NCBI GenBank assembly: GCA_019695185.1
Contig: JAIBAN010000022.1
Coordinates: forward strand, 1-64,000
Source: Blastocatellia bacterium
Lineage (GTDB): Bacteria > Acidobacteriota > Blastocatellia > Chloracidobacteriales > Chloracidobacteriaceae
Direction of reading: 5' to 3'
Length of the DNA: 64,000 nt
This document shows, in pieces, positions 12,515-59,731 of this stretch (its first letter is position 1; the number at the start of each line of letters is the position of its first letter). A program made the translations under genes and the position numbers. The notes beneath the pieces are model-generated. The model saw nothing but the letters and a program-made list of their open reading frames with translations. It did no database searches and was not told where the DNA came from.

Positions 12515-15500
12515 ATGCGGTCACCAATCCGACCTTTTTTCATCGTTTTTGTGCTTCTGCTTGGCGGTAGTTTTCTGATGCGGCTGAGTCAGGCTGACTC
12601 CACGCCACGGCCAGCCGCTTCCGCCACTCCGCTGGCTGCGGCCCGCCAGCTTGGATTGGGCATTTGGCGGGAAGCGACTCCCGGCGAACGATTGACCTTG
12701 CTTCAGAAAAAAACGGCTACGCCGCTGCCCGCTGGTGCCCGGATGCTGAGACTGGACCGGCAGGCGCTGAAACGGGATTTGGGCCAAATTCCGCTTGAAT
12801 TCAGTTCCGCTGCCAAAACTCATCCCGTGGTGATGGAATTTCCCTTGCCGGATGGCAAAAACGGACGGTTCCGGATTGAGGAGTCGCCCACGATGGAACC
12901 GGCGCTGGCAGCCAAATTTCCTGAAATCAAATCATTTCGGGGGATTGCGGTGGATGGAACGAGGGCCTATCTGCGCTTTGACTGGAGCTATCGCGGGTTC
13001 CACGCCATGCTCGTGACGAATGGGGTGGAAGTTCAAATTCAGCCCGCAGCTCCTGACAATCAGGAATTTTACCAATGTGCCTACGCCAAGGATTTTCCCT
13101 CCAATCGTGAATCTTCCTGCCTGACGACCCGCATGACCCGCGCTCTGGCGGAACGGGAGGCCGAATCTCCCCAAACCCCCACTGCTGAAGATGTGGCATT
13201 GGGCAGTGTCCGCCGGAACTACCGGCTGGCGGTGGCGGCCACCCAGGAATTCTATAATGGACCGGGGGGCGGTTCCCAAATCAGCGCCCTGTCACTCATC
13301 AACAGTTATGTCAATAATGTCAATGTTCTGTTTGAGCATGAGCTGTCGGTTCATTTCAACCTGATCGGCAATAACGATCAAATTCTTTTCACGGCGGAAC
13401 CGGATGGATACACCAACAATCAGCCGCCGCTCATGCTGGATGAAAACCGAATCAAGCTCCAGACCGTGATTGGTGCCGCCAATTACGACGTGGGGCATGT
13501 CTTTGGCTTGGAAACCCCTGCGGTTACCTCAACCGGGATTGCCTATACCGGCGTTGCCTGCCGTGACAATGATCCGGGCGATGGAAAAGGACCGGTCAAA
13601 GCTGCCGGGGTGGTGACCCTCACCTCAAATCAAAATCTCGATCCGATTACCTCCGCTCTGTTTGCCCATGAACTGGCCCACCAGTTTGGAGCCACCCACT
13701 CTTTTAATGATTCAGCCGACTTGCGGGAACAACGGGTGGGGGCAACGGCTTACGAATCGGGTTATGGTGCCACGATCATGTCGTATGCCCGAAACGGAGT
13801 GCATACGATTTCGCCGGTCCGTGAGCCACGGTTTCATTCGGGCAATTATACCCAGTTGAGCGAATACATTACCAAGGTGGCCACCTGTGCCACGACCACC
13901 AACACGGGGAACAATCCTCCGACGGTCAGTGCCGGACCCAATTATGTGATTCCCCGCAATACGCCGTTTATCCTGACGGCCAACGGGACCGACCCTGATG
14001 TGGCGGACATTCCCATGCTTGCCTATTGTTGGGAAGAGCTTGATGCCGGTGGCCTGAACTTCGCATCGCCACCTTACAGTGATGTCAACGACCCGGCCAA
14101 CACAACCCGACCGATTTTCCGTCCGTTTCCACCCGTTGCACAGAACTTTCGTTTTTTTCCCAGCCTGCAATTTATTTTGGATAATAATAATGTGCCCCCG
14201 CCGACCCTTTTTGAACAGCAAACGGCGGAAAATCTGCCCAATGTCGCCCGCACGATGAATTTTCGCTGCACGATTCGGGACATCAGCGGGGGAATCAGCA
14301 ATTCCACCACCCAAGTCACTGTGGCTCCCACGGCTGGCCCTTTCATGGTCACCTCGCAAAATTCGTTCGTTTCCTGGGCCGGAAATTCCACCCAAACCGT
14401 GACCTGGAACGTCGCCAATACCAACCAGCCGCCCATCAATTGCACCATGGTCAGAATCTCGCTTACCACGGGCAATTCCTCTGATGCCGGGGGCACGTTC
14501 CCCATCGTCCTGGCCGATAATGTACCCAATACGGGGACTGCGAATGTCATCGCTCCGAACGTGGCGGCGGCTTCAGCGCGCATCAAGGTGGAAGCCGTCG
14601 GTAATATCTTTTTTGACATCAACAGCAGCCCGTTTGAAATCACGACTGCTTCCCAATGTCCGGAATTGAGATTTTCACCCGCCAGTCTGCCTCCCGCCAG
14701 CGGTGCCTATAATCAGCAATTGAGCGTGAGTCCGGCAACCGGAGCCGTCACCTTTACAGCCTTGGATCCCCTGCCTGCCGGATTGACCCTTTCTTCCGGT
14801 GGCCTGCTTTCAGGGACGCCAACCGCCGGAGGAACCTTCCGGGTCCAGGCCACGGACCAAAGCCCCTGTTCGGCCATTCAAACCTACCGGCTGGTTGTTT
14901 GCGGTTCCATTACCTTGACTCCAAACCCATTGCCGGATGGAACCGTAGGGAGCGATTACACCACCCAGTTGACGGCCAGCGGGGGAACCGGACCTTATTC
15001 ATTTGCCGTCACGGTGGGGACGCTGCCAGCCAATCTCGTCTTGGCCACCAACGGGCTTTTCTCCGGTGCGCCTCAAAGTACTGGTTCATTTTCCTTCACC
15101 ATTCGGGCAACGGATGCCAACGGCTGCACCGGTTCGCAAGCCTACACCTTGAATGTCGGAGCTGCGGCGGAACGGTTTGCCTCGATTGCGAGCCGGGTTT
15201 CCGGGGCGGAACGGGGCGGTGAAGGCCGTGCCGGGAATATTTTGTCGTTTCCAGTGATGCTTTCTGCTCCGAGCGCCACTCCTGTGACGGTTGATTTTGC
15301 CACTGATACGGTACCCGGCGGGGCAGTTCCAGGGCAGGATTTTATTGCCGAAAACGGAACTGTGACGTTTGCCCCAGGCGAAACGCTCAAATATGTGGAT
15401 GTCATTGTAATGGACAACGACTCCAGCGAAGGTGAAGAAACCTTTGAAGTTGACTTGAGCAACCCGGTCAATGCCATCCTGGGAAATGCAACGGCCATCG

Positions 15501-17743
15501 GCGACATTTTGGATGACGATTTTCTGAATGTGGCTTCGGGAATTACGGTTCAACAGGGAACCAACTCCACTGGAACCACCATTGCCACTGTGGTCAACAC
15601 AACGGATTTGACTGGAATTCATGCTTCCGTGCTTTCTGCGCCAAACGGTGTGAACCTGACCAATTTCCAAAATACCAACGGAACCATTACGGCCAATATT
15701 CAGATTGATTGCACTGTGCCGGTGGGTCCGGCCACGATAGATTTGTACTACACCGACGACGAAGACATCGAAAACGTGGTGGACATCACCATTCAAATCA
15801 ATGCGAATACCCCACCCGGGATCGGAGCCTATACCCAAACCGGGGTGCCGTTCGGAGGCGGAGCCACGGCCACTCCGGCCAGCGGCCCAACCGATAACGG
15901 CGGAACCCCCACACTTGCGATTGATATTCCAGGCTTCACTGGGACCTCTTCAATTAACCAGAACACAGGCGTGGTCACCCTGGGGAATGGGGGACCGGGC
16001 GGGAACTTTACCGCCACGGTGACCGCCACGGATAATTGTGGTTCCATCACCACCCGAACTTTTACTGTCTCAGTCAGTAACCCGCCTCAAATTACAGCCG
16101 GGGGAACGGTCAATGTACAGGCCGGTGCCAACGGGGCCGGTGCCACCATTGCCACTGTCAGTGATGTGGAAACAGCGGCTGGCAGCCTGGTGGTCACCGC
16201 CAACCCGCCCGCCGGTCTGACGGTGACCAATATCGTCAATACCAACGGGACTGTGACCGCCACCGTCACCGCCCTCTGTAACGCGACCACCGGCGCAAAT
16301 ACGGTGGTTTTAACGGTCACCGACGGAAGCGCCATTTCCATCAACGCCAATCTGTCGGTGATGGTGACAGCCAACTCGCCGCCCCAAGTTGGGACCTATG
16401 CCAACAGTTCGGTTCAGGGTGGTGGCGGAACCACGATTACCAGTACCCCGCCAACCGACAACGTGAGTGTGGCCAGCTTGACGGCCAATGCTCCAGGCTT
16501 TACTGGAACCATTACCGGCAACACCGGCACCGGCACTCTGACGGTTACAAATGCTGCCCCGCCGGGTGTTTTTACCGTGACGGTGACTGCCACCGACAAC
16601 TGCGGCGCGACCGCCACCACGACGTTCCAGTTGACGGTGATTAACGGTCCGCCGACGATTCAGCCTGCCGGTGCCATCAACCGCCAACAGGGAACCGCCG
16701 GTTCTGTTTCAACTGTGGCAACGGTCACTGACGACAGCGGGAACGGAACGGTCACGGTCACTGCCACTTCGGTTCCGGCGGGGCTCACCGTAACCGGCAT
16801 TACCAATACCAATGGAACGGTCACGGCCACGATTGCTGCTTTGTGCAATGCCACGGTCGGGAACAATACGGTGGTGTTGACCGCCACGGACATCAACAAT
16901 TCAACCGGCACACTCAATCTGACTGTGAATGTCATGGCCAATGGCGGGCCGACCCTGACCTATACCTCGGCCACCGTGGCGAGTGGCAGTGGCCGGACCA
17001 TCAATCCGGCCAGTGGTCCGAGTGACAACGGTTCGGTGGCTAATATCATTGTGTTCAGTCCGGGAACCTTTGCCGGAACGGTTTCGGTCAACAGCGGAAC
17101 CGGGGTGGTCACCGTGGGTAATGCTGCGCCGGTGGGCACCCATACCATTACCATCCGGGCCACCGATAACTGTGGTGCCATCACTGATGCCACGTTGACA
17201 CTGACGGTGACGGGGGCGGCTTCGCATACGGTAACCCAGTTTTACCCGGTGGCTTCCACCAGCGGAAAAACCATTACCATCGCCGGAACCGGCTTTGTGG
17301 CTGGCAACACCCAGGTCTTTTTCGGAGATGAGCGGTTGATTCCGGCAACGGTCAATACGGTCACGCCAACCACCATTTCGGTGGTGGTACCGGCTTCTTC
17401 GACCGGGGCCGGGAATGTCAACGGCTACATCACGGTGCGGGTCAACGGGGCGGATGTGACGACCTCCGGCCTTACCCCCAATGCGCCTGACCCAAGTAAT
17501 CCGGCGGCGGTCTTCCCTGAATTTATCCTGTGGGGGGATGTGACCCGTGATGGGCAGTTTGCCACCAATGATGTGGCGTTGGCACGGGCCTTTTTGCAGT
17601 TCCAGGCCACTCCAACCTCCCGACAAATGCTGGCAGTGGATGTCATTCCTGCCAACGGCAACGGAAGTCGGGGCAATGGACAATTGACAACCACCGATTT
17701 TACTTTCCTGCGAGCGGTTTCGTTCGGCCAGGCGGTCTTTTAA
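12515..17743 (+). CDS. Secreted reprolysin-like (M12B-type) metallopeptidase with long beta-sandwich tail and dockerin-like end
   Basis: Predicted exported zinc peptidase of 1742 aa. The ATG at 12515 follows GGAG by 7 nt and opens a signal peptide (PFFIVFVLLLGGSFLM), so I prefer it to the TTG at 12497. An N-terminal prodomain-like region is followed by the catalytic domain, with HELAHQFGATH (HExxHxxGxxH, first His about residue 385) and the Met-turn IMSYA. Then come Ig/cadherin-like modules (two Ig-like ones with LPAGLTLSSGGLLSGTP), a Calx-beta-type module near residues 900-1000, several related modules of about 100 aa rich in Thr, Val and Gly, an IPT/TIG-like domain, and a C-terminal dockerin-like repeat pair (DVTRDGQFATNDV, DFTFLRAV). 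It is a paralogue of the peptidase at 27244. The stop TAA starts the next repeat element. Confidence 0.85.
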   Translation: MRSPIRPFFIVFVLLLGGSFLMRLSQADSTPRPAASATPLAAARQLGLGIWREATPGERLTLLQKKTATPLPAGARMLRLDRQALKRDLGQIPLEFSSAAKTHPVVMEFPLPDGKNGRFRIEESPTMEPALAAKFPEIKSFRGIAVDGTRAYLRFDWSYRGFHAMLVTNGVEVQIQPAAPDNQEFYQCAYAKDFPSNRESSCLTTRMTRALAEREAESPQTPTAEDVALGSVRRNYRLAVAATQEFYNGPGGGSQISALSLINSYVNNVNVLFEHELSVHFNLIGNNDQILFTAEPDGYTNNQPPLMLDENRIKLQTVIGAANYDVGHVFGLETPAVTSTGIAYTGVACRDNDPGDGKGPVKAAGVVTLTSNQNLDPITSALFAHELAHQFGATHSFNDSADLREQRVGATAYESGYGATIMSYARNGVHTISPVREPRFHSGNYTQLSEYITKVATCATTTNTGNNPPTVSAGPNYVIPRNTPFILTANGTDPDVADIPMLAYCWEELDAGGLNFASPPYSDVNDPANTTRPIFRPFPPVAQNFRFFPSLQFILDNNNVPPPTLFEQQTAENLPNVARTMNFRCTIRDISGGISNSTTQVTVAPTAGPFMVTSQNSFVSWAGNSTQTVTWNVANTNQPPINCTMVRISLTTGNSSDAGGTFPIVLADNVPNTGTANVIAPNVAAASARIKVEAVGNIFFDINSSPFEITTASQCPELRFSPASLPPASGAYNQQLSVSPATGAVTFTALDPLPAGLTLSSGGLLSGTPTAGGTFRVQATDQSPCSAIQTYRLVVCGSITLTPNPLPDGTVGSDYTTQLTASGGTGPYSFAVTVGTLPANLVLATNGLFSGAPQSTGSFSFTIRATDANGCTGSQAYTLNVGAAAERFASIASRVSGAERGGEGRAGNILSFPVMLSAPSATPVTVDFATDTVPGGAVPGQDFIAENGTVTFAPGETLKYVDVIVMDNDSSEGEETFEVDLSNPVNAILGNATAIGDILDDDFLNVASGITVQQGTNSTGTTIATVVNTTDLTGIHASVLSAPNGVNLTNFQNTNGTITANIQIDCTVPVGPATIDLYYTDDEDIENVVDITIQINANTPPGIGAYTQTGVPFGGGATATPASGPTDNGGTPTLAIDIPGFTGTSSINQNTGVVTLGNGGPGGNFTATVTATDNCGSITTRTFTVSVSNPPQITAGGTVNVQAGANGAGATIATVSDVETAAGSLVVTANPPAGLTVTNIVNTNGTVTATVTALCNATTGANTVVLTVTDGSAISINANLSVMVTANSPPQVGTYANSSVQGGGGTTITSTPPTDNVSVASLTANAPGFTGTITGNTGTGTLTVTNAAPPGVFTVTVTATDNCGATATTTFQLTVINGPPTIQPAGAINRQQGTAGSVSTVATVTDDSGNGTVTVTATSVPAGLTVTGITNTNGTVTATIAALCNATVGNNTVVLTATDINNSTGTLNLTVNVMANGGPTLTYTSATVASGSGRTINPASGPSDNGSVANIIVFSPGTFAGTVSVNSGTGVVTVGNAAPVGTHTITIRATDNCGAITDATLTLTVTGAASHTVTQFYPVASTSGKTITIAGTGFVAGNTQVFFGDERLIPATVNTVTPTTISVVVPASSTGAGNVNGYITVRVNGADVTTSGLTPNAPDPSNPAAVFPEFILWGDVTRDGQFATNDVALARAFLQFQATPTSRQMLAVDVIPANGNGSRGNGQLTTTDFTFLRAVSFGQAVF

Positions 17744-17880
17744 TTGGGAATTGAGAATTGAGAATTGAGAATTGGGAATAGCGTTATTGCATAACGAATT
17801 GCTTATTCTTAAATGAGTTGCAGGATTGAACCTGCAATCACTTCTCACTTCTCAATTCTCAATTCTCAATTCTGAATTGG
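17741..17880. repeat. Inverted pair of AATTGAG arrays with palindromic core
   Basis: Arrays at 17741-17779 and 17851-17880 surround a core with two perfect small hairpins: CGTTAT-tgc-ATAACG, and TTGCAGG/CCTGCAA with a 6-nt loop. The left array begins at the peptidase stop codon (TAA at 17741). The right array ends 2 bp before the hisZ ATG. Confidence 0.93.
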
Positions 17881-17882
17881 AA

Positions 17883-19016
17883 ATGAACTCACCAACGTTG
17901 CTCTCAAAAATTCCACCGGGCGTCACTTATGTGCTGGGCGAGGAAGTGATTGCCCGTCGCGCGGTGGAGCGCACTGTGTTTGAAGTCCTGCACGGCTGGT
18001 CGTATGCCGAGATTTTGCTGCCAGCCTTTGATTATCACGAAATTTTTGCGCAGGGGCTGGGAACCAGATACGCCGATACAACCTTTTGTTTTACCGATTC
18101 TGAAGGCGGATTGCTGGCGTTACGTCCGGATTTGACCGCCCTGGTCGCCCGTACGGTCGCCACCCGCTTTGGCGGGCAGCCACGGCCCATCCGATTGTGT
18201 TACACCGGGGAGGTGTTTCGGAACCTCCAAACCCCAGGCCGGGCACCCCGTGAAAGCTGGCAAATCGGAGCCGAATTGATTGGGAACGACCGTCTGGAAG
18301 CCGATGCCGAAATGCTCTTTGTCGCAATTGAATCCATGCAGCGACTGGGTGCGGGTGCCTTCCAGATTACTCTGGGGCATGCAGGTTTTTTTCAGAATAC
18401 CGTGACCGCTTTGAACTTGAATTCAGCGGAAACGCAGACCCTGTTTGAAATTCTGGACAGCCGAAATCAACAGCGGTTACTGGCATGGTTGCAGGACCGG
18501 ACAAACCCACAACAGGCCGAAAGCTGGACCAGGCTGTTTCAACTGGCGGGCGGGGCCGAGGTGTTGGAGGCCGCCCGGAATTTGGGACTGGAGGCGGATT
18601 TTTCCGCTGCCATTGACGATTTGGAGCATGTCTGGGAGATTGCCAGGGTTTTGCAGTTGGACCATTTTCTGGAACTTGACTTGGGTGAAGTCAGCAATCT
18701 GGATTACTACACCGGCATGACCTTTAAGATATATGCTGCCGGTGTGGGTGCATCAGTGGGAAGCGGTGGGCGCTATGACCGCCTGCTACGCAATTTTGGC
18801 GCTGATGAACCAGCCGTCGGATTTCAATTCAATCTGGAGCGCATGATTTGTCTGCTGCGCCAGCAAAAAAATTCGCCCTCGACCGCTTTGGCTCCAACCA
18901 TCCTGGAGGCGGACAGCGACAACCTGCTGGCTGCCTTTCAGAACGCCCAACAATTACGAAACCAGGGCAAACAGGTGGAAATCAAAACCATGCGGCATTC
19001 ATTGGCTCCGCATTAG
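17883..19016 (+). CDS. hisZ: ATP phosphoribosyltransferase regulatory subunit HisZ
   Basis: HisZ partners short-form HisG in the first step of histidine synthesis. It is a catalytically inactive relative of histidyl-tRNA synthetase. The class II synthetase core shows as LRPDLTALVAR, the motif-2-like region RLCYTGEVFR and the tail GGRYDRLLRNFG. I use the ATG at 17883; the earlier in-frame TTG at 17826 would translate the heptamer array (SQFSILNS). The protein has 377 aa, near family length. The stop TAG is the first base triplet of the following TAGGGTTCAGGG array, so the extreme C-terminus may have been reshaped by the repeat. No hisG is in the window. Confidence 0.9.
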   Translation: MNSPTLLSKIPPGVTYVLGEEVIARRAVERTVFEVLHGWSYAEILLPAFDYHEIFAQGLGTRYADTTFCFTDSEGGLLALRPDLTALVARTVATRFGGQPRPIRLCYTGEVFRNLQTPGRAPRESWQIGAELIGNDRLEADAEMLFVAIESMQRLGAGAFQITLGHAGFFQNTVTALNLNSAETQTLFEILDSRNQQRLLAWLQDRTNPQQAESWTRLFQLAGGAEVLEAARNLGLEADFSAAIDDLEHVWEIARVLQLDHFLELDLGEVSNLDYYTGMTFKIYAAGVGASVGSGGRYDRLLRNFGADEPAVGFQFNLERMICLLRQQKNSPSTALAPTILEADSDNLLAAFQNAQQLRNQGKQVEIKTMRHSLAPH

Positions 19017-19200
19017 GGTTCAGGGTTCAGGGTTCAGGGTCTTTTGAATGGATAATTGACAATGGACAATTGACAATGAAAGCCCCATCCAGAGCTTCAA
19101 ATCTGCTGATATTCGAAAACCCCGAACCTTGAACCCTGAACCCTGAACCCTGAACCCTAAACCCTAAACCCTAAACCCTGAACCCTGAACCCTGAACCCC
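19014..19200. repeat. Inverted pair of GGGTTCA arrays
   Basis: GGGTTCA copies at 19016-19040 and TGAACCC/TAAACCC copies at 19121-19200 flank a core that includes a smaller ACAATTGACAATG-type repeat. It begins at the hisZ stop codon and ends 43 bp before lipA. Confidence 0.92.
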
Positions 19201-19243
19201 AAATAGGGTTTCCCCTCTGGAAAGTCTTTGTTAAGATGGGATT

Positions 19244-20236
19244 ATGGAAAAGAAAACATTCAAGCGTCGTGAACTCCGGCCTGAGCCGAAACCGGAGTGG
19301 CTCAAGATTCGCCTGTCAGCACGGGAAACCTTTCAGGAAGTTTCCCAAATGGTGAATGACCTGACCTTGCACACAGTCTGTCAGGAAGCTCGGTGTCCCA
19401 ATATTTACGAGTGTTTTTCCCATCGCACTGCCACTTTTATGTTGTTGGGTGACATCTGTACCCGACATTGCGGATTTTGTGCCGTGACCAAGGGAAAACC
19501 TCGTTTGGTTGACCCGGAAGAGCCCCGGCATGTGGCCGAGGCAGTCAAAAAGCTGGGATTGCAGCATGCGGTTGTGACCTCGGTCAACCGGGATGAACTG
19601 CCGGACGGCGGGGCGCACCAGTTTGCCGCCACCATAAGGGAAATCCGCCGGCTCGTGCCCGGTTGCAAGGTTGAGGTGTTGATTCCGGATTTTCAGGGTA
19701 ATTGGGAAGCTTTGGGAGTCGTCCTTGATGCTCGTCCGGATGTCCTCAACCACAACACCGAAACCGTCAAAGCCTTGTACAAACGGGTCCGTCCCGATGC
19801 CAGATACCAACAGTCCATGGAATTGTTACGCCGTGCTGCCGCTTATCGCAGCCCCGCCTTTCCGCTGCTGACCAAATCAGGAATCATGCTTGGCCTGGGG
19901 GAAACCAGAGAAGAACTGCTGGAAACGATGCAGGATTTACGTCTGGCGGATTGCGATATTTTGACCCTCGGTCAATATTTGCGGCCCAGCATGCGCCATT
20001 TGCCGGTGGAAAGGTTTTATACTCCCGAAGAGTTTGCCGAACTGAAAGTGCGGGGCATGGAAATGGGCTTCAAATATGTTGAATCCGGTCCGTTGGTGCG
20101 CAGTTCCTATCATGCCCACGAACATCGCCCGGCCCAGGTGGAGGGTGTTTTCCCAACTCCACTTCCTCTTGAAATTCCAGTTGATTCACCGAAATTGGTC
20201 ACATTAGGTATTCGACGAAATGCCACTGGTAATTGA
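19244..20236 (+). CDS. lipA: Lipoyl synthase
   Basis: Radical-SAM enzyme that inserts two sulfurs into octanoyl groups on lipoyl domains of 2-oxoacid dehydrogenases and the glycine cleavage H protein. Both iron-sulfur motifs are intact: the auxiliary cluster motif [12 protein letters not shown] (CX4CX5C) and the radical-SAM motif CTRHCGFC (CX3CX2C). The C-terminal RSSYHA, whose serine ligates the auxiliary cluster, is present. Length 330 aa is at the upper end of normal. The last codons (AAT TGA GAATTG) form an AATTGAG unit at the stop. lipB is not in the window. Confidence 0.98.
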
Positions 20237-20301
20237 GAATTGGGAAGCGGCCTTTCCCTCGACTTCAATTTCCAACCTTTCTTTTTTATTGTGAAAAACT
20301 T

Positions 20302-21399
20302 ATGGACGTTGCCATTGTTGGCGGCGGCATTGCTGGACTCGCCGTAGCCTACGAGCTTTCAAAGCAGGGGATTGTTTGCGAGCTTTTTGAAAAAGCCCGA
20401 GTTGTGGGCGGTCGTCTGACCACACGCTATCACCATGGTTCGGCAATTGACCTGGGAGCCCAGTTTTTCACAGTCCGCACGCCTGAATTTGAAACGTGTT
20501 TACGCGAAATCGGGGCAGTTGGGAAGATGAAGCAAATCAATGTCCCGATTGTAACCTATCCCTTTGCCAACCTGCGGGAAGCCCTGACGGTTTGCTACCG
20601 GGAAGAACAGGAAGCATTAGGCTCAGGGTTGCCCTTTCCCCACCGATATGTTTTTCAGGACGGGATGGCTGCTTTGGCGCAACAACTGGCCGACCATGCC
20701 AGTCTATGTTCCCTCAACCTGGAAACCTATGTTGAGGGAATCAAATGGGACGAAACCTCTGGTCGGTGGATTCTGCATACCAGAGGCGACAACACCACCC
20801 TGGGAGGGGCGTCTTCGGCTCGATTTGTTGTTTTCACCTTGCCCGCACCACAAACGGCCCACATTCTTTCCCGGAGCGAAACCCCGTCGGTTCCGCTCAT
20901 CACCTTGGCTGAAACCTTGAACCAGGTGAATTATGACAGTTGTGTGACTGTGATTTTACAAACCGGACAGGACCAGCAATGGGAACTGGTCGGGGCTTTT
21001 CGCGGGGTGGACGGCAATCAGCCCATTAACTGGATGACCTGGGGCAATCGGATTGCTCCTGAAAATTATCCGGAGGGAGATGGAGCCATCATTCTGAATT
21101 TCTCGCCGGAAGCCAGCCATCAGATATTCGACCTTGGTGAGGACATCATCCTGGCTGCCACCCAAACTGCGCTGCACAATGATTTGAGTATTTCCCTGCC
21201 AACGCTCAGATGGTTGCATGTCAAGCGATGGCGCTATGCCAATCCCCAACCTGGCTGGTTGTCGCCGGATTTAATGGCCAGTGCCGCCAAACAGGGGATT
21301 TTCGTGGGTGGGGATTTTGTGGAAAAAGGGCGGGTTGAATCTGCTTATCTTTCCGGCTACAGATTGGCGCAGGAACTGATAAAGAGAATTGAGAATTGA
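20302..21399 (+). CDS. FAD-dependent amine oxidase-like oxidoreductase (renalase-like)
   Basis: Predicted soluble flavoprotein of 365 aa. The N-terminal dinucleotide-binding motif is VAIVGGGIAGLAVAYEL, followed by VVGGRLTTR, a pattern of amine oxidases and renalase-like enzymes. The C-terminal FAD-contact segment GIFVGGDFVEKGRVESAYLSG is also present. I start at the ATG at 20302, which places the Rossmann fold at residue 2; the longer TTG form is unlikely. The last four residues (RIEN) and the stop are encoded by the AATTGAG array. Substrate unknown. Confidence 0.85.
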   Translation: MDVAIVGGGIAGLAVAYELSKQGIVCELFEKARVVGGRLTTRYHHGSAIDLGAQFFTVRTPEFETCLREIGAVGKMKQINVPIVTYPFANLREALTVCYREEQEALGSGLPFPHRYVFQDGMAALAQQLADHASLCSLNLETYVEGIKWDETSGRWILHTRGDNTTLGGASSARFVVFTLPAPQTAHILSRSETPSVPLITLAETLNQVNYDSCVTVILQTGQDQQWELVGAFRGVDGNQPINWMTWGNRIAPENYPEGDGAIILNFSPEASHQIFDLGEDIILAATQTALHNDLSISLPTLRWLHVKRWRYANPQPGWLSPDLMASAAKQGIFVGGDFVEKGRVESAYLSGYRLAQELIKRIEN

Positions 21400-21507
21400 G
21401 AGATTCCAAAGGTTGAAGAATCACCTGCTACAACAGGCGGCAGTGACACATTCTTTCAGGATAAACTGAGAGTTACTGGTATTCTCAATTCTCAATTCTC
21501 AATTCTT
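21386..21507. repeat. AATTGAG inverted pair between convergent genes
   Basis: GAATTGAGAATTGAGAG at 21386-21402 faces CAATTCTCAATTC copies at 21481-21507. The plus-strand oxidoreductase stop (TGA 21397-21399) lies in the left arm, and the pyrE stop (TAA, minus) abuts the right arm. The two arms could pair in RNA and act as a bidirectional terminator. Confidence 0.88.
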
Positions 21508-22091
21508 TAGCTCTGTTTCCGGCTACCGGGTTTGACGGCAGGGATTCCAGTCTGGCATAAGGGGCAGGCATCCGGCTGATAGGTTGGGATTTCCAGCCGA
21601 ATCAGCGCTGCCCTGGGCACACCCAGGTCAATCGGTTCTTTGGTCCGGTCAATAATTGAGCCAACCCCAATCACCTTGGCCCCGGCTGCTTCAAGGGCAG
21701 TCATGGTTTCACGGGTGGAAAGACCAGTGGTGACGACATCTTCAATCACCAGGGTTTTTTCACCAGGGTTGACATCAAATCCGCGCCGCAGAGTCATGGC
21801 GGTTCCTTCGCGTTCGGTGAAAAGACACCGCACCCCAAGAGCCCTGGCAACTTCATGTGCAATTAAAATTCCACCGATGGCCGGGGCTGCCACGACATCG
21901 GGCGGGCCGGTCACACTCGCCAGGAGCTTTTCCGCCAGGGCTTTGCCAATGACTTCGGCAACGGAGGGAAATTGCAGCAACCGGGCGCATTGCACATAAT
22001 TGGGGCTGTGCAGTCCCGAAGACAAAAGGAAATGACCGGTGAGCAAGGCTCCGGTTTCCGCCAACAAATGTTCGATTTGAGAGGTTTCCAT
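21507..22091 (-). CDS. pyrE: Orotate phosphoribosyltransferase
   Basis: Converts orotate and PRPP to orotidine 5'-phosphate in de novo UMP synthesis. The PRPP-binding motif LVIEDVVTTGLSTRETM is clear, and the N-terminal GHFLLSSGLHSPNYVQ loop is typical. I choose the ATG at 22091 (METSQIEHLL), which gives 194 aa, a normal length; the upstream extension is Cys/Phe-rich and not family-like. The C-terminus has a CPLC pair seen in some PyrE groups. Confidence 0.95.
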   Translation of the reverse strand: METSQIEHLLAETGALLTGHFLLSSGLHSPNYVQCARLLQFPSVAEVIGKALAEKLLASVTGPPDVVAAPAIGGILIAHEVARALGVRCLFTEREGTAMTLRRGFDVNPGEKTLVIEDVVTTGLSTRETMTALEAAGAKVIGVGSIIDRTKEPIDLGVPRAALIRLEIPTYQPDACPLCQTGIPAVKPGSRKQS

Positions 22092-22258
22092 TGAGGTCGT
22101 GAATCCTTCTTTGCAGAAAAAATGTTCAAGGCAAAAGCAAAAGTGCAAAACGCCAAGGGAGGGACAGGCTGACCAGCCCTCCCCGGCAGCGCAACCATAA
22201 ACGTACTCCCTCCGGTTTTGTCAATCGGCCTACCAACATTTTTCCGAAAAAGGAGTGG

Positions 22259-23113
22259 TTGCATAGACTTCAATCAGCAGGTCAATTGCCGAAAGGTGCC
22301 GTGAATTCTTCCATTCTTCAACGTTTACGAGAACATTTGGAACGGTCCGAAGCAGCGGTTCCGCTGGAAACGCTGGGTCGGGAAGTCTTTCGCGCTCCGC
22401 TGGCCCAGCGGGAAGTGCTGGAACAGATTCTGACACCGCTGCTGGCCCAACTGCCGCAAGCCCGCATCAATGAAGTCGGTTGGGTGTTATGGGAGGCCCC
22501 GCCGCCAAAAACAACGAGCCTGGCGGAAACACGGTTTGTCGTGGTGGATGTTGAAACAACCGGTAGTAGTACCCGCACTTCCCGTATTACCGAAGTGGCC
22601 TTGTTTGCCGTCCAAAATGGGAAAGTGGAACCCGGTTTTACGTCGTTGGTCAATCCTCTGATGGAAATCCCGCCCATGATTACTGATTTGACCGGAATTA
22701 CCAATCAAATGGTGGCGACGGCCCCCCGGTTTGTGGAGATTGCCGACCAAGTGGCTGATTATTTGGCTGAGGCAGTCATTGTGGCACATAACGCCCCTTT
22801 TGACTGTGCTTTTTTACGATTGGAATTCGGTCATTGGGATGCCGGATTCGACTTTTTGAACGAATCCTTATGCACCGTCCATCTGGCCCGTCATCTGGTT
22901 CCGGGGCTCGAAAATTACAAACTGCATACGGTTGCAGAACATTTTGGGGTGACCATCGTCAATCGTCACCGGGCCGCCGGTGATGCCTTGGCCACTGCCC
23001 AGGTTTTCCGGAATTTGCTGGAACTGATGCGGGAACAAGGGGTCACTACCCTGGAGGGTGCCGCCAACTTAAAAAAGGAACGCAAGCGGCGGAAACTGGC
23101 CGAACTCCGATAA
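22259..23113 (+). CDS. DEDD-family 3'-5' exonuclease (DNA polymerase III epsilon-like)
   Basis: Predicted proofreading-type exonuclease. Motif Exo I is FVVVDVETTG (about residue 93), Exo II lies in VAHNAPFDCAFL, and Exo III is HRAAGDALATAQ, so it belongs to the DEDDh class. An N-terminal helical region of about 85 aa resembles the extension of longer epsilon-like proteins. Start is uncertain: TTG at 22259 (AAGGAG very close upstream) or GTG at 22301 (GAAAGG 5-6 nt upstream). It is divergent from pyrE. It could be dnaQ-like repair exonuclease rather than the replicative subunit. Confidence 0.88.
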   Translation: MHRLQSAGQLPKGAVNSSILQRLREHLERSEAAVPLETLGREVFRAPLAQREVLEQILTPLLAQLPQARINEVGWVLWEAPPPKTTSLAETRFVVVDVETTGSSTRTSRITEVALFAVQNGKVEPGFTSLVNPLMEIPPMITDLTGITNQMVATAPRFVEIADQVADYLAEAVIVAHNAPFDCAFLRLEFGHWDAGFDFLNESLCTVHLARHLVPGLENYKLHTVAEHFGVTIVNRHRAAGDALATAQVFRNLLELMREQGVTTLEGAANLKKERKRRKLAELR

Positions 23114-23187
23114 TTGAACCAAGTCGGCCTGTACAAGGTGAAAAAAAGACTGAAGGCGGAAGGTTGTCATTTTCGAGGGACCACTTT

Positions 23188-23709
23188 ATGAGCCACTTTA
23201 CGGAAGATTCACAGGAACTGTCTGAAATCAGTGAGGTGCAGCGTGTGGCGGCCAAACAGCTTTTTCAGGAAGCCTATGAACTGCAAATGGCCGGGGAACT
23301 GGATGAAGCAATTGAATGCTACCAAAGGTCAATTGAACTGTTCCCAACGGCAGAGGCTTATACCTTTTTGGGTTGGACCTACAGCTTCAAAGGGGATGTG
23401 GACCGGGCCATAGCGGAATGCCATCGGGCAATTGCGGTGGACCCGGATTTCGGCAACCCCTATAACGATATTGGGGCTTATCTGATTGAAAAAGGGGACG
23501 TGGTGTCAGCCATTTCCTGGTTGCGTCGGGCGATGCAGGCAAAAAGATACGAATGTTACTATTACCCTCATTTTAATCTGGGGCGGATTTATGAGATGCA
23601 GCGCCGTTGGCTGGACGCGCTCCGTGAGTTTCAAAAGGCGTTGGATTTATATCCCGGTTATACGGCAGCCCAAAAGGCCATCCGACGGGTCCAGGGGAAG
23701 GTGAATTAG
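23188..23709 (+). CDS. Tetratricopeptide repeat protein, 173 aa
   Basis: Small soluble protein with about four TPR units (AIECYQRSIELFP, AIAECHRAIAVDPDFGNPYNDIG, ALREFQKALDLYP). The ATG at 23188 is preceded by GAGGGA at good spacing, so I prefer it to the TTG at 23164. It probably serves as a protein-protein adaptor; partners are unknown. The stop TAG is the first triplet of the adjacent TAGGGTTCAGGG array. Confidence 0.85.
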   Translation: MSHFTEDSQELSEISEVQRVAAKQLFQEAYELQMAGELDEAIECYQRSIELFPTAEAYTFLGWTYSFKGDVDRAIAECHRAIAVDPDFGNPYNDIGAYLIEKGDVVSAISWLRRAMQAKRYECYYYPHFNLGRIYEMQRRWLDALREFQKALDLYPGYTAAQKAIRRVQGKVN

Positions 23710-23832
23710 GGTTCAGGGTTCAGGGTTCAGGGTTCAGGGTTTTCGCCTATCAGAAAAATTGAGGTTGTGAATTGGCTTTCAATTCTCAATTCTCAATTCT
23801 CAATTCTCAATTAAAAAAACCCTGAACCCTGG
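23706..23832. repeat. Nested repeat: AATTGAG array inside a GGGTTCA inverted pair
   Basis: GGGTTCA copies at 23708-23740 pair with CCCTGAACCCTGG at 23819-23832. The core carries CAATTCT copies at about 23779-23812, with one opposite-sense GTGAATTGG-like word before them. Two heptamer families are combined in a single element between convergent genes. Confidence 0.9.
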
Positions 23833-23836
23833 TTTC

Positions 23837-24544
23837 CTACAATGAAAAAGTGGTTGGCTGGGTAAATTTCAGCCGGATAATGACCCCGTTGCGGAGGTGG
23901 ATGTCATTTCCCTTGGTCAACAACACCCCAGCTCCGGCAGCTCCACCCAGAGTTCCTGCCGCCGCGCCGCCGCCGCCGCCGCCCCAAAGCACGCCAGTCC
24001 CGCCGATACTTCCCAGAATTCCGCCTTTAATTGTGTTATTGACAGTTCTGGAGCCGCTGTGGCCGCCCTGGACAGTTCCGTCCTTGTCGGCCTTCAGGCG
24101 CTGTTCGGCATAGTAATCCTCAATCGAGGTGACGACGGTTGGAACGGACTCGGTCCCGTAATCAGTCACAACCTGGTCAAAAACAATCAGTAATGAGGCT
24201 TGCCGTTGCCCGACTTTGGCCTGTGTGAGTTTTGCGATACGGCCGCGAAACTCGGTTCCTCTCGCAAAGACCAGCTTTCCGTTGACCCGAAAGGGTTCTT
24301 CCAGTTGAGCAACCACCGGGTCGTCAACCTGGCTGACTTTGGTATTTACCTGTGAAACCAGCACCAGCCGTAACGTCGTGTCGGCGGGAATTGTCACCTG
24401 TGTTCCGTTGGTGGATTGGGATGAGACCGGATCCTGATTGGCAGGGCGGTTGGCTCCACTTTGGGCATGGACAGGGGAAAAGTTAAACAAAATCGGGGTG
24501 GCAATCAGCAGCAAAACAAATGAGAAGCGCAAAAAAGGCTTCAT
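23837..24544 (-). CDS. Secreted Gly/Ala-rich protein, possibly TrbI/VirB10-like fold
   Basis: Exported protein of 235 aa. The signal peptide is MKPFLRFSFVLLLIATPILF; the ATG at 24544 is preceded by GAGG. The middle part (VTIPADTTLRLVLVSQVNTKVSQ, then FARGTEFRGRIAKLTQ) resembles the C-terminal beta-barrel of TrbI/VirB10-type proteins, but there are no other conjugation genes here. A Gly/Ala stretch (SIGGTGVLWGGGGGGAAAG) near residues 180-210 could be a membrane-active hairpin. Function unknown; the fold suggestion is tentative. Confidence 0.6.
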   Translation of the reverse strand: MKPFLRFSFVLLLIATPILFNFSPVHAQSGANRPANQDPVSSQSTNGTQVTIPADTTLRLVLVSQVNTKVSQVDDPVVAQLEEPFRVNGKLVFARGTEFRGRIAKLTQAKVGQRQASLLIVFDQVVTDYGTESVPTVVTSIEDYYAEQRLKADKDGTVQGGHSGSRTVNNTIKGGILGSIGGTGVLWGGGGGGAAAGTLGGAAGAGVLLTKGNDIHLRNGVIIRLKFTQPTTFSL

Positions 24545-24741
24545 ACACACCTCAAAAAATCAATTGAGATAGCGAGAACAAACTCGTGCAGATGTGCTTG
24601 GGAGCGCTGGACATGGCTACGGCAGACGCAGTTTCGCCCTGGCTGCAAAACCTGTCAATCTCTTTTCCAGCCAAAACCGGATTATGAGAGAACTTTAATT
24701 ATTTCCCCCATAGGGTGGGAACTGAAGGGGTTTCCGGGCTT

Positions 24742-26592
24742 TTATCGGCGGAGCAGTTCTTTGATTCCACCCAGTTTGATGTCAAACAGTTCACGTTCCT
24801 CAGGCGGGCAGTAGGTCATCAACTCCCGAATGAAATCCTCATAGAAAAGACTTGGGTTGAAATAGAGAAGTACCCGTGCCTGTTCGGCATGTTTGATGTT
24901 ATTGACGGCAGCCAGCATAACTTCATGAACTGGTTTTCCGCTCAAACTGGCCCGCCGGAGCGCCCAACTGGCAATGATTTCAGCCAGTCGCTCTTTTTTG
25001 ACCAGAATCGGGTCCGTGGTTTTGAAGAGCAGGGAGAGGGAATCAGCCACAAACAGCGGAGCTTTGAGGTCGTCCAGGTAGGCCATTAAATCTTCAATGG
25101 CAGCGTCAATATTGGCATTTTTTCCAGGGTCGCCAAAGGATTGGCGTCGGTTGACGAGACTGGCCGGCCACATGTCCTCATTGGTTTCAGTTTTTTCTCC
25201 TGCTTCGGGTTCGGTTCCGGAAAGGCTGATTTCGGTCGGTGCCGGGCGGGAAGGACTGAACGCGACCGGGCGGGGCAATCGGTAGCCCACTTCCAGTGAC
25301 TGAGTAAGGTTGGGGTAAGGCACTCCACCGCCCAAGGCTCCGGTTCCCAGCGTGGGGACCGCTTCAATTTCACTGGTGGCGGGTGGCGGGCCGGGCAAAG
25401 CCTGGGGCGCAGCAGGCGGGGGAACCATTCCACTCAAAGGTTGGGTGGCGGATGCTGGGGGAATCATTCCGCTCAAAGGCTGGGTTCCGCTTCCAGGTTG
25501 AGGCATGACTGGTTGGCGCATCGAATGAACCAAATGCGCCATCAGGCGTTGCCGCAACATTTCATAGGCATAGGCGATGTGGCGAAAAATCGCGTCAATT
25601 TCCAGCCGCAACTCCCTGGGTGCCTGAAGAAAACGGTCCGGGTGGAATTTTTCGGCCAATTTGAAATACGCCTGATTCAGGTCTTCCATGGTCCCGTTGG
25701 GCGGGAAATCAAGGGTGATATAGGGATTGTTTTGTCCGATCCGGGCTTTGATAATTTCCAAATCCCGCATAAAGCTGCGGAAGTCGGGCGGGGCCGGAAC
25801 AGGGGTCTGTTGCACCACCGGAGCCGGAGCCGGGGGATTGTCTTCCATTCCTTCGGGAACGGTAAACTTGCCGGTCCGGCGGGAAAGCTGGGGGGCCTGG
25901 GTTTGTTCCAGAATTCCGGCGGAAAGCAGGCCATACAGCGACCGCAACGTCATATCGGGTGGGGCCTGCGAATTGATCAGAAGCTGAAGCAGGTCGGTGG
26001 GGCTTTTCACCAGTTCCACCAACCGTCGTTCCACCGGTTTGAGCGAAATGGTTTGCAATCTGAGTAAGGGTGAGGAGGAAGGACTAACCAGGCGGTTCAG
26101 GTCGCCAAGGCCCCGCCGGATGACTTCGAAATCCTCAATCCGCCGGACCCCTTCCAAAATGATGCTGGCGGTGGTGAGCTTGAGTTTGAGTTCTTCGGCC
26201 ACCGGCATCCGGCCTTCGATGAATTGATATTGGCCAACCGTCCAGGTAAAGAGGGAAAAAATAATGTCGAGGATTTGAAAGGTGACATTCATCACAAGGT
26301 CTGACTCGCTCATGATGCCCAATTCCACCATGGCTTTCCCAAACCGTTTGCCGTTTTGGGTTTCGGCCAGCACCTTTTCAAAATTATCGTAACTGAGCAG
26401 GCCATGCCGGAGGAGCACTTCCCCAATCCGGTCCTCCCGTTGATTGCTGGCTGAAAAGACAATGTTTCCCAACTCAAAATAAATCTGCTTGCGTTGTTGA
26501 CCCTGGGTGAAAATCAGTTCGCCGGTGCGTCGTTCGACATAGAGGGTACGCAGTAAATCCGGCAGGCAAACGGTCGTCAAATCGCCCTGCAT
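24742..26592 (-). CDS. DUF4388 protein with a J-domain
   Basis: Cytoplasmic protein of 616 aa. The N-terminal DUF4388 (PatA-like; about residues 1-110, with RRTGELIFTQGQQRKQIYFELGNIVFA-type residues) is common in signalling proteins of Acidobacteriota and Myxococcota. A central helical part is followed by a J-domain near residues 285-345 with the HPD motif intact (EKFHPDRFLQ), so it may recruit DnaK. A Pro-rich linker has three copies of a PLSGM motif (about 370-420), and a helical tail follows. Alone in its transcription unit. Partner proteins unknown. Confidence 0.82.
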   Translation of the reverse strand: MQGDLTTVCLPDLLRTLYVERRTGELIFTQGQQRKQIYFELGNIVFSASNQREDRIGEVLLRHGLLSYDNFEKVLAETQNGKRFGKAMVELGIMSESDLVMNVTFQILDIIFSLFTWTVGQYQFIEGRMPVAEELKLKLTTASIILEGVRRIEDFEVIRRGLGDLNRLVSPSSSPLLRLQTISLKPVERRLVELVKSPTDLLQLLINSQAPPDMTLRSLYGLLSAGILEQTQAPQLSRRTGKFTVPEGMEDNPPAPAPVVQQTPVPAPPDFRSFMRDLEIIKARIGQNNPYITLDFPPNGTMEDLNQAYFKLAEKFHPDRFLQAPRELRLEIDAIFRHIAYAYEMLRQRLMAHLVHSMRQPVMPQPGSGTQPLSGMIPPASATQPLSGMVPPPAAPQALPGPPPATSEIEAVPTLGTGALGGGVPYPNLTQSLEVGYRLPRPVAFSPSRPAPTEISLSGTEPEAGEKTETNEDMWPASLVNRRQSFGDPGKNANIDAAIEDLMAYLDDLKAPLFVADSLSLLFKTTDPILVKKERLAEIIASWALRRASLSGKPVHEVMLAAVNNIKHAEQARVLLYFNPSLFYEDFIRELMTYCPPEERELFDIKLGGIKELLRR

Positions 26593-36947: not shown

Positions 36948-36957
36948 AACAAGTAGT

Positions 36958-37392
36958 TTTGAGTTTTGAGTTTTGAGTTCTGAGTTCCGCCTTCAGGCGG
37001 CAGTTTGGAGTTCCGCCTTCAGGCGGCGGTTTTGAGTTCCGCCTTCAGGCGGCAGTTTTGAGTTCCGCCTTCAGGCGGCAGTTTGGAGTTCCGCCTTCAG
37101 GCGGCAGTTTGGAGTTCCGCCTTCAGGCGGCGGTTTTGAGTTCCGCCTTCAGGCGGCTGGCGGTTGCCAGTTTATTGTAGTTGCTGTTTTGATTTGGTCA
37201 TGATTTTTATGGTGCCTTTTTCCGTAGGGTAAAACAGGCGGCTCCAATCATCGGTCGTTGAGACCCCCGAAAAACGTCATTAAATGACCAAAGACCCTCA
37301 AGTTTGACTCCCCACGCCGCCTGAAGGCGGAACTCCAAACTGCCGCCTGAAGGCGGAACTCAGAACTCAAAACTCAAAACTCAAAACTCAAC
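36958..37392. repeat. GAGTTTT heptamer arrays joined to a 25-bp palindromic repeat
   Basis: GAGTTTT copies at 36958-36985 lead into seven copies of a unit of about 25 bp (36986-37155) that contains the palindrome CCGCCTTCAGGCGG. After a core of about 150 bp, complementary copies occur at 37317-37392 and end in AACTCAAAACTC. The right edge is 3-4 bp from the stop of the kinase gene at 37395. It resembles REP/BIME elements, here combined with a heptamer array. Confidence 0.92.
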
Positions 37393-40874: not shown

Positions 40875-40879
40875 AAAAA

Positions 40880-41018
40880 GCAAAGGACTGAGGACTGAGG
40901 ACTGAGGACTGAGTTTTTGATAATACACCGAATTTATTTTCTGTTCCGGCAGGGTCAAAGGAAACTATTTGATTCTTTGCCAGACTCAGTCCTCAGTCCT
41001 CAGTCCTCAGTCCTTTTG
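40880..41018. repeat. GGACTGA inverted pair, core type 1
   Basis: GGACTGA copies at 40883-40913 face TCAGTCC copies at 40985-41015. The core (about 40911-40985) matches the core of the element at 59540-59730, with 24 of 32 identical bases at its left end without gaps, and shared TTTGAT and TTGCCAG near the right end. It fills the gap between the kinase start and the unknown gene at 41021. Confidence 0.92.
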
Positions 41019-42945: not shown

Positions 42946-42978
42946 TAGTGGACGAATTCAGAAATAACACCGCAACCG

Positions 42979-43062
42979 GTCAATGGTAAATGGTGAATGG
43001 TGAATGGTATTTTGCTGAACATCTGGTTTTCACCATTCACCATTTACCATTCACCATTGACC
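42979..43062. repeat. ATGGTGA heptamer inverted pair
   Basis: Four ATGGTGA-type units (42979-43009) and their complement (43032-43062) around a 22-bp core. The two arms could form a stem of about 31 bp with few mismatches. It lies in a 225-bp stretch without genes. Confidence 0.92.
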
Positions 43063-43119
43063 AAAACGAGTTGGAGGGAAATTTATGATTTACTCCACTA
43101 GGCTTTCTATAACCCAGCC

Positions 43120-43171
43120 CCTGAACCTGAACCCTGAACCCTGAACCCTGAACCCTGAACCCTGAACCCTA
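43120..43171. repeat. GGGTTCA array (single arm)
   Basis: About seven TGAACCC copies end within 20 bp of the stop codon of the EVE-domain gene (minus). I found no inverted partner nearby. Confidence 0.9.
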
Positions 43172-43732
43172 TTTCCCCCCTAGTTTCAAAATGATTTTCC
43201 ATTCCTCTGCCGTGACCGGTTGGACGGAAAGACGGCTCCCGCGTTGGACGACCTGCATGTTTTCAAGTCCTGCCGTTTGTTTCAGCAGGGGCAGGGGAAT
43301 CAGTTCCCGAAAGACCCGAACCAGTTTGATGTCCACCATAAACCAGGTTGGGTTGGCTGGGTTGCTTTTGGGGTCGTAATGATGATGGTCGGCGTCAAAA
43401 GCCGTGTCGTCCGGATAACCGGTCCGCACCACTTCGGCCAATCCGGCGATGCCTGCCGGTTCTGCGTTGCTGTGGTAAAAAAGAACGCCATCCCCAACCT
43501 GCATCACATCCCGCAGGTAGTTGCGCGCCTGATAGTTGCGCACCCCGTCCCAGCAGGTGGTCTGGTTGGGGGCATTGCGTAAATCCTCAATCGAAAACGA
43601 CGTGGGTTCACTTTTCAGCAACCAAAACTGTTGGGAACAGGACTGAGGACTGAGGACTGAGGACTGAGTTTCAGGGGGTAAAGTAATAACGTTCACGGAG
43701 TTTATCGGTGTTTTTGATTTCTTGGCAGGCAT
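43169..43732 (-). CDS. EVE-domain protein
   Basis: EVE domains (PUA-like fold) bind modified bases in RNA or DNA. The domain runs from about residue 36 (WLLKSEPTSFSIEDL) to the end, with the typical CWDGVRNYQARNYLR, VLFYHSN and GLAEVV motifs. The first 35 residues include SSVLSPQS, encoded by a GGACTGA array, and INSV from the core of that element. As no other start is convincing, either the repeat is translated or translation begins at a weak TTG at the domain edge. Often monocistronic; its role here is unknown. Confidence 0.88.
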   Translation of the reverse strand: MPAKKSKTPINSVNVITLPPETQSSVLSPQSCSQQFWLLKSEPTSFSIEDLRNAPNQTTCWDGVRNYQARNYLRDVMQVGDGVLFYHSNAEPAGIAGLAEVVRTGYPDDTAFDADHHHYDPKSNPANPTWFMVDIKLVRVFRELIPLPLLKQTAGLENMQVVQRGSRLSVQPVTAEEWKIILKLGGK

Positions 43733-43810
43733 GGATATAAGTCCTTGTTTTCGAGTTGCTTCATTCAGTTCAAGGAATCGGAATTGCTCAGTCCTCAGTC
43801 CTCAGTCCTT
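43637..43810. repeat. GGACTGA inverted pair, related core
   Basis: GGACTGA copies at 43639-43669 and TCAGTCC copies at 43788-43810. The left arm and part of the core lie within the EVE gene, and the right arm reaches the stop of the histidine kinase (TAA at 43809-43811, then GGACTGA on the minus strand). The core has a GAGTTTAT word like the other two GGACTGA cores but is otherwise diverged. Confidence 0.88.
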
Positions 43811-59543: not shown

Positions 59544-59731
59544 GGGCTTTTTTTTAGGACTGAGGACTGAGGACTGAGGACTGAGTATTTGATGGTAGCG
59601 TGAGTTTATTTTCTACCCAGCGAGGAACCAAGGCAGCCGTTTGATTTGCCAGCTAAACTCAGTCCTCAGTCCTCAGTCCTCAGTCCTGGAATCGCCCTCA
59701 GTCCTCAGTCCTCGGGTTGTCCTCAGTCCTT
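59537..59731. repeat. GGACTGA inverted pair, core type 1, between convergent genes
   Basis: GGACTGA copies at 59537-59585 (broken by a T-run) face TCAGTCC copies at 59657-59730. The stop of the PQQ gene (59541-59543) and that of the kinase (59723-59725, minus) are each a TGA within a GGACTGA unit, one at each end of the element. The core matches that at 40880-41018. Confidence 0.93.

Follow-up and report, generated by a model that had tools for sequence, protein, structure and literature searches.

The window analysed here is a stretch of 64,000 nucleotides (nt) from a Blastocatellia bacterium (GenBank assembly GCA_019695185.1, contig JAIBAN010000022.1, positions 1 to 64,000), and the subject of this report is the tandem arrays of seven-nucleotide units (heptamers) that lie between its genes. 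A preliminary description had listed ten genes with arrays at their stop codons, namely those for a peptidase, HisZ, LipA, a flavin adenine dinucleotide (FAD) oxidoreductase, a TPR protein and a PQQ protein on the plus strand, and MutM, PyrE, a histidine kinase and a propeller kinase on the minus strand. Every one of these stops was found in place, the names of the ten proteins agree with their Pfam matches, and in 10/10 genes one or more heptamer-like units contain or adjoin the stop, confirming the overall observation. A clean period-7 run that overlaps the stop or lies within 4 nt of it is present in six of the ten (peptidase, 4 nt; hisZ, -2; FAD enzyme, -16; TPR gene, -2; pyrE, 0; histidine kinase, -1) but not in the other four: lipA has about two imperfect units at its stop, the PQQ gene ends in a lone GGACTGA unit with the array beginning 12 nt further on, the array of the propeller kinase is 9 nt from the stop, and a mixed 19-mer separates the mutM stop from the clean array. 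Three more minus-strand genes, with stops at 37395 (3 nt from an array), 41021 (6 nt) and 43169 (overlapping), had been missed, as had the mirror-image arms that lie ahead of start codons (among them 270-372, 3133-3175, 17838-17878, 19118-19199, 36955-36979, 40884-40913 and 43639-43668). Besides the three heptamers named earlier, a fourth unit, AGTTTTG, had been overlooked (Table 1).

Table 1. Heptamer arms, element parts and related loci in the window and, where indicated, on other sampled contigs
Feature	Position	Strand	Remarks
AATTGAG arm, 14.7 units	270..372	-	ends 3 nt ahead of ATG 376; imperfect facing arm 114-142
ACTGAGG / 19-mer arm	2061..2114	-	at mutM stop (2107); partner 1953-1976 at 5' end of next called open reading frame (ORF)
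Facing AGGGTTC arms	2961..3175	.	2961-3014 and 3133-3175; divergent gap, contains no gene 3' end
AATTGAG arm	17742..17779	+	starts at peptidase stop TAA 17741-17743; perfect run 17748-17774, 4 nt past stop
Facing AATTGAG arm	17838..17878	-	ends 4-9 nt ahead of hisZ ATG (17883)
AGGGTTC arm	19015..19040	+	two final letters of hisZ stop TAG belong to array
AGGGTTC element core	19041..19117	+	inner AATGGAC/AATTGAC stretch; among 14 aligned copies in sample
Facing AGGGTTC arm, AGGGTTT variants	19118..19199	-	upstream of lipA start 19244
Two imperfect units (AATTGAGAATTGGG)	20231..20246	+	contain lipA stop TGA 20234
AATTGAG arm	21384..21401	+	enters FAD enzyme ORF, provides its stop TGA
Facing AATTGAG arm	21481..21506	-	flush with minus-strand pyrE stop TAA
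AGGGTTC arm	23708..23741	+	at TPR gene stop TAG
Facing arm, other unit (AATTGAG)	23779..23812	-	same convergent gap as TPR-stop AGGGTTC arm
Facing AGTTTTG arms, CCGCCTTCAGGCGG palindromes between	36955..37391	.	right arm 3 nt from stop of minus gene 37395-40928
Facing ACTGAGG arms	40884..41014	.	40884-40913 and 40985-41014; right arm 6 nt from stop 41021
AATGGTG facing pair	42978..43170	.	42978-43009 and 43029-43063; plus AGGGTTC arm 43119-43170 overlapping stop 43169
Facing ACTGAGG arms	43639..43809	.	43639-43668 and 43787-43809; right arm shares one letter with histidine kinase stop TAA
Facing ACTGAGG arms	59556..59713	.	convergent PQQ / propeller kinase gap
Nested palindromic insert (G003)	C60:60114, C28:81040, C148:50247		examples
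RAYT-type Y1_Tnp gene (G000)	C11:85828-86160		L011; own REP-like repeats unrelated to heptamers
RAYT-type Y1_Tnp gene (G003)	C91:65897-66238		L169; own REP-like repeats unrelated to heptamers

Array orientation across intergenic gaps

The window lies on contig C125 of a genome of 8.33 Mb in 222 contigs (G000), which belongs to a family of ten genomes, seven of them small (2.8-3.7 Mb), and whose lipoyl synthase has relatives chiefly in Blastocatellia and other Acidobacteria. It was compared with the second large genome of the family (G003), a member of a different genus with a lipoyl synthase 82% identical to that of G000. The scan covered 1.10 Mb of G000 and 1.17 Mb of G003 (13-14% of each genome), a non-random sample for which contigs already known to bear arrays were chosen first, and genes were called with a custom codon-usage script that gives reliable stop positions and less reliable starts. 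With an array defined as a perfect period-7 run of at least 19 nt, G000 yielded 282 arrays (about 256 per Mb), leaving 257 intergenic ones after removal of 12 within genes and 13 without a neighbouring gene, and G003 yielded 309, leaving 291 after removal of 9 and 9, respectively. The expectation by chance is close to zero: first-order random sequence modelled on the first 0.84 Mb gave 0-1 runs. Among runs of at least three copies in G000, period 7 accounts for 242, followed by periods 4 (26), 9 (24), 6 (10), 8 (3) and 5 (1), with 0 for periods 10-12. The main units, read on the G-richer strand, are ACTGAGG (84 arrays), AATTGAG (64), AGGGTTC (60) and AGTTTTG (14), and just three units make up 208/282 arrays.

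Distances to stop codons were compared with random placement and orientation within the same gaps (500 draws). In G000, 138 of the 257 intergenic arrays are nearest a stop and have the G-richer strand coding, against 74 at random; 63 of them lie within 3 nt of the stop (5.4 at random, maximum 13) and 97 within 10 nt (13.6, maximum 25). The corresponding figures in G003 are 131/291 (77 at random) and 31 within 3 nt (3.2), and the excess persists at run cut-offs of 16, 19, 24 and 30 nt. Among the 138 stop-side arrays, 16 overlap the stop by 1-4 nt, 27 begin 0-3 nt past it, and 20 reach 5 nt or more into the ORF, whose stop codon they provide, so that the repeats also edit protein ends. This distance scan had been proposed in the preliminary description, and its outcome supports in part the interpretation given there, in that placement or selection of arrays at gene 3' ends agrees with an excess far above random placement but is incomplete as a description, since 84/257 arrays are nearest a start and divergent gaps carry facing pairs too.

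The stop-codon rule is half of a gap-wide rule. Start-side arrays with the G-richer strand on the template (84/257 in G000, 115/291 in G003) complement the stop-side class, whereas the opposite orientations are represented by 27 and 8 arrays in G000 and by 32 and 13 in G003; the geometry of coding after a stop and template before a start is thus obeyed by 222/257 and 246/291 arrays, respectively. Most of the units that follow the rule in G003 differ from those of G000. Neighbouring arrays on opposed strands stand in +/- order 79 times and in -/+ order once in G000 (67 versus 3 in G003), the ratios by gap type in G000 being 20:0 in convergent, 53:1 in tandem and 6:0 in divergent gaps, and the second arm of a pair stops just short of the next ribosome-binding site (RBS) or stop. 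Partnerless arrays keep the orientation (36:10 in G000, 57:14 in G003), and so do pairs of unlike units without 10-nt complementarity (10/24 in G000, 14/30 in G003), which still face each other. Because divergent gaps, partnerless arrays and non-complementary pairs all obey it, the rule is independent of transcription and of pairing: the G-richer strand of each arm heads from the gene into the gap, whatever the direction of transcription. Across 80 lipoyl-synthase loci of the class, which carry many other units, 32 of the 39 arrays that could be placed (of 43) follow the same rule, with the reservation that loci L108 and L112 share identical arrays and hence are not independent.

Paired arms, shared cores and orthologous gaps

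Both arms of a pair consist of the same unit in 55/79 cases in G000 (18.7 after shuffling) and in 37/67 in G003 (8.0), and arm lengths within a pair are uncorrelated (-0.12; first 0.84 Mb). The gap left outside a paired element has a median of 29 nt in all, compared with 141 nt for array-free gaps, and the arms look stop-anchored because the elements leave almost no gap outside. A large share of gene ends is touched in this way: arrays occupy 34/107 convergent, 115/503 tandem and 12/104 divergent gaps in G000, and 32/104 convergent and 18/103 divergent gaps in G003.

Homology between the loops that separate the arms differs among units. In G003 it is shared by 13/13 AGTGGTT, 8/10 AGTAGTC, 5/10 AGGGTTC and 2/8 AGCGAGT loops, and in G000 by 5/10 AGGGTTC, 4/25 ACTGAGG and 0/21 AATTGAG loops, whereas no shuffled loops shared homology. 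The G000 AGGGTTC core can be aligned over its full length in 14 copies, which hold an inner array at a constant position. The unit of this inner array varies (AATGGAC, AATTGAC, AATTGAG), and its length differs between copies, in most cases by a multiple of 7 nt. Cores recur many times in their own genus, have no match in the sample of the other genus, and match inside called genes in 1/10 cases for one core and in none for four others. Many dispersed short copies with inverted ends, as in miniature inverted-repeat transposable elements (MITEs), were found for AGGGTTC in G000 and for AGTGGTT and AGTAGTC in G003, but not for AATTGAG. The AGTAGTC and AGTGGTT families have distinct cores by eye, and fell into one cluster because some members of both hold a common nested insert. 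This insert, palindromic and running from atgcsagttaagggttg... to ...cttaattcgcat, lies between the arms of elements of both families. In addition, when the AGTAGTC elements of G003 (such as L176-L178, L139 and L188) are compared by eye with their cores set in one direction, many have a left arm far exceeding the right one in length, which would fit directional expansion.

Between the two samples, 29 adjacent gene pairs are common; arrays are present in both genera in 6 of these gaps, in G000 only in 4, in G003 only in 5 and in neither in 14, some gaps scored as empty at the thresholds used containing decayed arrays. In all six doubly occupied gaps the units differ between the genera, and the G003 gap orthologous to that on the pyrE side (21481..21506) carries an 8-mer in place of AATTGAG. 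Three gaps measuring 20, 24 and 23 nt in one genus have array-bearing counterparts of 155, 445 and 179 nt in the other, and the array-bearing side is the longer in 7/9 one-sided cases. Units are also distributed unevenly among genomes. Three-copy words, overlapping matches counted, number 750 for AATTGAG in G000, with G030 next at 36 (58 genomes), 1,169 for GGACTGA in G000 and at most 9 in any other (56 genomes), and 762 in G000, 1,198 in G003 and 57 in G021 for GGGTTCA (56 genomes). Samples of other genomes gave array counts of 0 in 100 kb for G002, 5 in 80 kb for G014, 1 in 70 kb for G026, 1 in 60 kb for G023 and 0 in 60 kb for G017. With cores and units that are genus-specific, insertion, slippage and unit replacement become separable through comparison of strains.

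Origin of the paired arrays

The gap-wide geometry suggests element-like structures with facing arms that fit into the space between a stop codon and the following gene, and we consider it reasonably likely that the arrays form the arms of palindromic elements, dispersed among the gaps between genes, that spread and then vary in place. Such an element would consist of two heptamer arrays on opposite strands, the first with its G-richer strand running inward from the left gene, separated by a core or spacer of roughly 40-115 nt, the whole taking up the short space from a stop codon to the RBS of the next gene or to the next stop. Family copies would have spread to many gaps, as the dispersed copies indicate for families with a conserved core, and the elements are probably mobile. 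AATTGAG and most ACTGAGG elements have only their arms in common, and spreading of these families, AATTGAG included, is presumed. After arrival, arrays would grow, shrink and switch unit in place by the 7-nt steps seen among the copies of the AGGGTTC core, presumably through replication slippage, and the close fit between stop and RBS may reflect either an insertion preference or selection against harm to the ORF, RBS or promoter.

Several observations weigh against this account. The AATTGAG loops (0/21) and most ACTGAGG loops (21/25) share nothing, so the case for mobility with a core does not extend to the two commonest units. In element flanks, where outer repeats blur the ends and no closely related empty site was available, no target-site duplication was found, and core searches within the 13-14% of each genome returned short copies only, with no transposase or autonomous copy. 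A few elements stand in reverse order, L072 being a clear exception among the lipoyl-synthase loci, and in 2/9 one-sided orthologous gaps the array-bearing side is not the longer. The array-free gaps of G000 are themselves slightly skewed in the direction of the arms: convergent gaps by +0.12 after stops, and tandem gaps by -0.14 before starts and by about 0 after stops. Part of the orientation may therefore be background or decayed arms.

Instead of spreading as elements, the arms may be functional hairpins at gene ends, an unlikely explanation in our judgement but one with several observations on its side. RNA-paired arms would terminate, protect or separate transcripts, with selection holding the stem by the stop, as has been proposed for the stems of repetitive extragenic palindromic (REP) sequences. 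The whole peptidase-hisZ gap is predicted to fold end to end into one stem (-63.7 kcal/mol, z -10.8), in 55/55 same-unit pairs of G000 the arms are complementary over a stretch of 10 nt or more (median 28 nt), convergent gaps are the most often occupied and divergent gaps the least, and six orthologous gaps hold elements of differing unit in the two genera. However, these six are only slightly more than the 3.8 that chance would give with 10 and 11 occupied gaps among the 29 (hand calculation), many orthologous gaps are without elements, and divergent gaps follow the rule as well. The orientation is also kept by lone arrays and by unlike pairs that do not pair, for which reason hairpin pairing was rejected as its cause, and the loops of AATTGAG and ACTGAGG elements show no stronger folding than segments taken from gaps without arrays (z < -2 in 8/46 versus 12/60). 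The suggestion that the arrays act as terminators found no support: in a scan confined to positions 15,000-25,000, 0/10 terminator-like sites lie on arms, the number of sites is not above that in shuffles (13.9 expected), and an intrinsic terminator (GC-rich stem plus T run) was accordingly rejected as the main cause.

Growth by slippage from stop-codon or chance seeds, confined to gene ends through exclusion by coding sequence and promoters, appears improbable. Array lengths within one family do step by 7, 20/138 stop-side arrays themselves provide the stop codon, and AGGGTTC arrays at stops coincide with TAG in 7/16 cases, compared with 65/477 other genes. However, independent seeding is disfavoured because it predicts none of the recurring units (three in 208/282 arrays), the same-unit facing arms (55/79 pairs versus 18.7), the cores shared by some families or the equally regular start-side arms. 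Seeding at stops, as the preliminary description had envisaged, was rejected as the main cause on the start-side arms, the divergent-gap arms and the shared cores, and slippage is supported solely as a process that changes length, by the 7-nt steps within homologous elements.

Two further mechanisms seem very improbable. Mobilisation of REPIN-like elements by a REP-associated tyrosine transposase (RAYT) would fit the facing pairs with a spacer, as in REPIN doublets, and the Y1_Tnp matches in G000 (11) and G003 (9), but both sampled RAYT-type loci have a different kind of repeat on their flanks, of the classic REP-like type (9/11 G000 matches being unread), array-poor genomes have Y1_Tnp too (G026, 14; G023, 6; G006, 11), and G030 has AATTGAG arrays with 0 Y1_Tnp matches; on the two loci, RAYT mobilisation was rejected as the main cause. 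Telomere-like end addition, in which G-rich, genome-specific heptamers would be added to both 3' ends at breaks in gaps and the ends then rejoined, would leave inward-facing scars; it predicts that, regardless of gene direction, the G strand read 5' to 3' leads out of each gene and into the gap, and also predicts unlike units in one gap (24/79 pairs) and nested arms. The conserved cores that several families hold between their arms count against it, unless they are later captures spread by copying, and numbers of reverse transcriptase matches do not distinguish genomes rich in arrays from those poor in them (G000, 5; G003, 3; G014, 2; G017, 2). We know of no bacterial enzyme for such heptamer addition.

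Related repeat systems and further repeats

The gap geometry itself has been published for the GGGNATC and GGGGAYT heptamers of Xanthomonas and Nostoc, together with a proposed role of G-quadruplexes (Rehm et al. 2015, PMC4692102). As in that report, the arrays described here are dispersed and intergenic (257/282 placed in gaps), have the G strand coding right after stops, stop overlap included, and template right before starts, form facing pairs (70 and 75 cases there) and are few between divergent genes. Rehm et al. also describe array lengths that differ among related genomes, and report no link to mobile elements. In contrast to the one unit type per genome described there, several occur per genome here, and among the main units only AGGGTTC (60 arrays) contains GGG; ACTGAGG (84), AATTGAG (64) and AGTTTTG (14) have no run of three Gs and hence lack quadruplex potential. 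The recurrence of the geometry in Blastocatellia with units unable to form quadruplexes argues against the quadruplex as its general reason. Beyond the geometry given in PMC4692102, the present data add non-quadruplex units, several units per genome, orientation of unlike pairs without complementarity, conserved cores and differing units, that is, unit turnover, at the same orthologous gap.

Other systems resemble the arrays in part. The TAACTGA heptamers of Beggiatoaceae, interpreted as translational sites (MacGregor 2015, PMC4679880), are likewise plentiful between genes and some overlap ORF ends, but they are described as mostly in one orientation toward the start codon, with a single inverted repeat and no facing pairs. 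REPINs (Bertels and Rainey 2011, PMC3116915) are facing doublets with a spacer, extragenic, hairpin-forming and dispersed, but consist of REP units with a RAYT partner, in place of which heptamer arrays without a RAYT link at the two loci seen were found here. BrickBuilt of Porphyromonas gingivalis, a minisatellite within a MITE (Klein et al. 2015, PMC4596501), is also a dispersed intergenic element made largely of tandem repeats; there, 23-nt repeats lie between a leader and a tail with small inverted ends, at least 49 nt from genes, whereas here the facing arms are formed by the arrays, which adjoin stops. In the openly licensed literature, no report was found of such arrays in Acidobacteria or of heptamer-armed elements with cores.

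Several further repeats were observed. Comparison of Rfam models with the window gave 0 matches at gathering scores. AACCCTA occurs 3.9 times at 19153-19179 as a local variant of AACCCTG within the arm 19118..19199; AACCCTA is the plant-type telomere word. At the 3' end of mutM (2061-2114), heptamers alternating with CTTTCTTC yield a 19-mer repeat, and at 36976-37157 and 37316-37367 a 26-mer combines a heptamer piece with the palindrome CCGCCTTCAGGCGG. Palindromes of the CCGCCTTCAGGCGG type number 68 in the sample and form 21 clusters, 21/21 of them intergenic, and such a palindrome is found no more than 40 nt from 6/23 AGTTTTG/AGTTCTG arrays. The called ORF 3188-5827 contains, at 3879-4027, repeats of the nine-mer GGAGTCTAG with AGACTCCCA facing them, and similar nine-mers form facing arms in several sampled gaps. 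A 60/120-nt minisatellite is present at 30178-30434.

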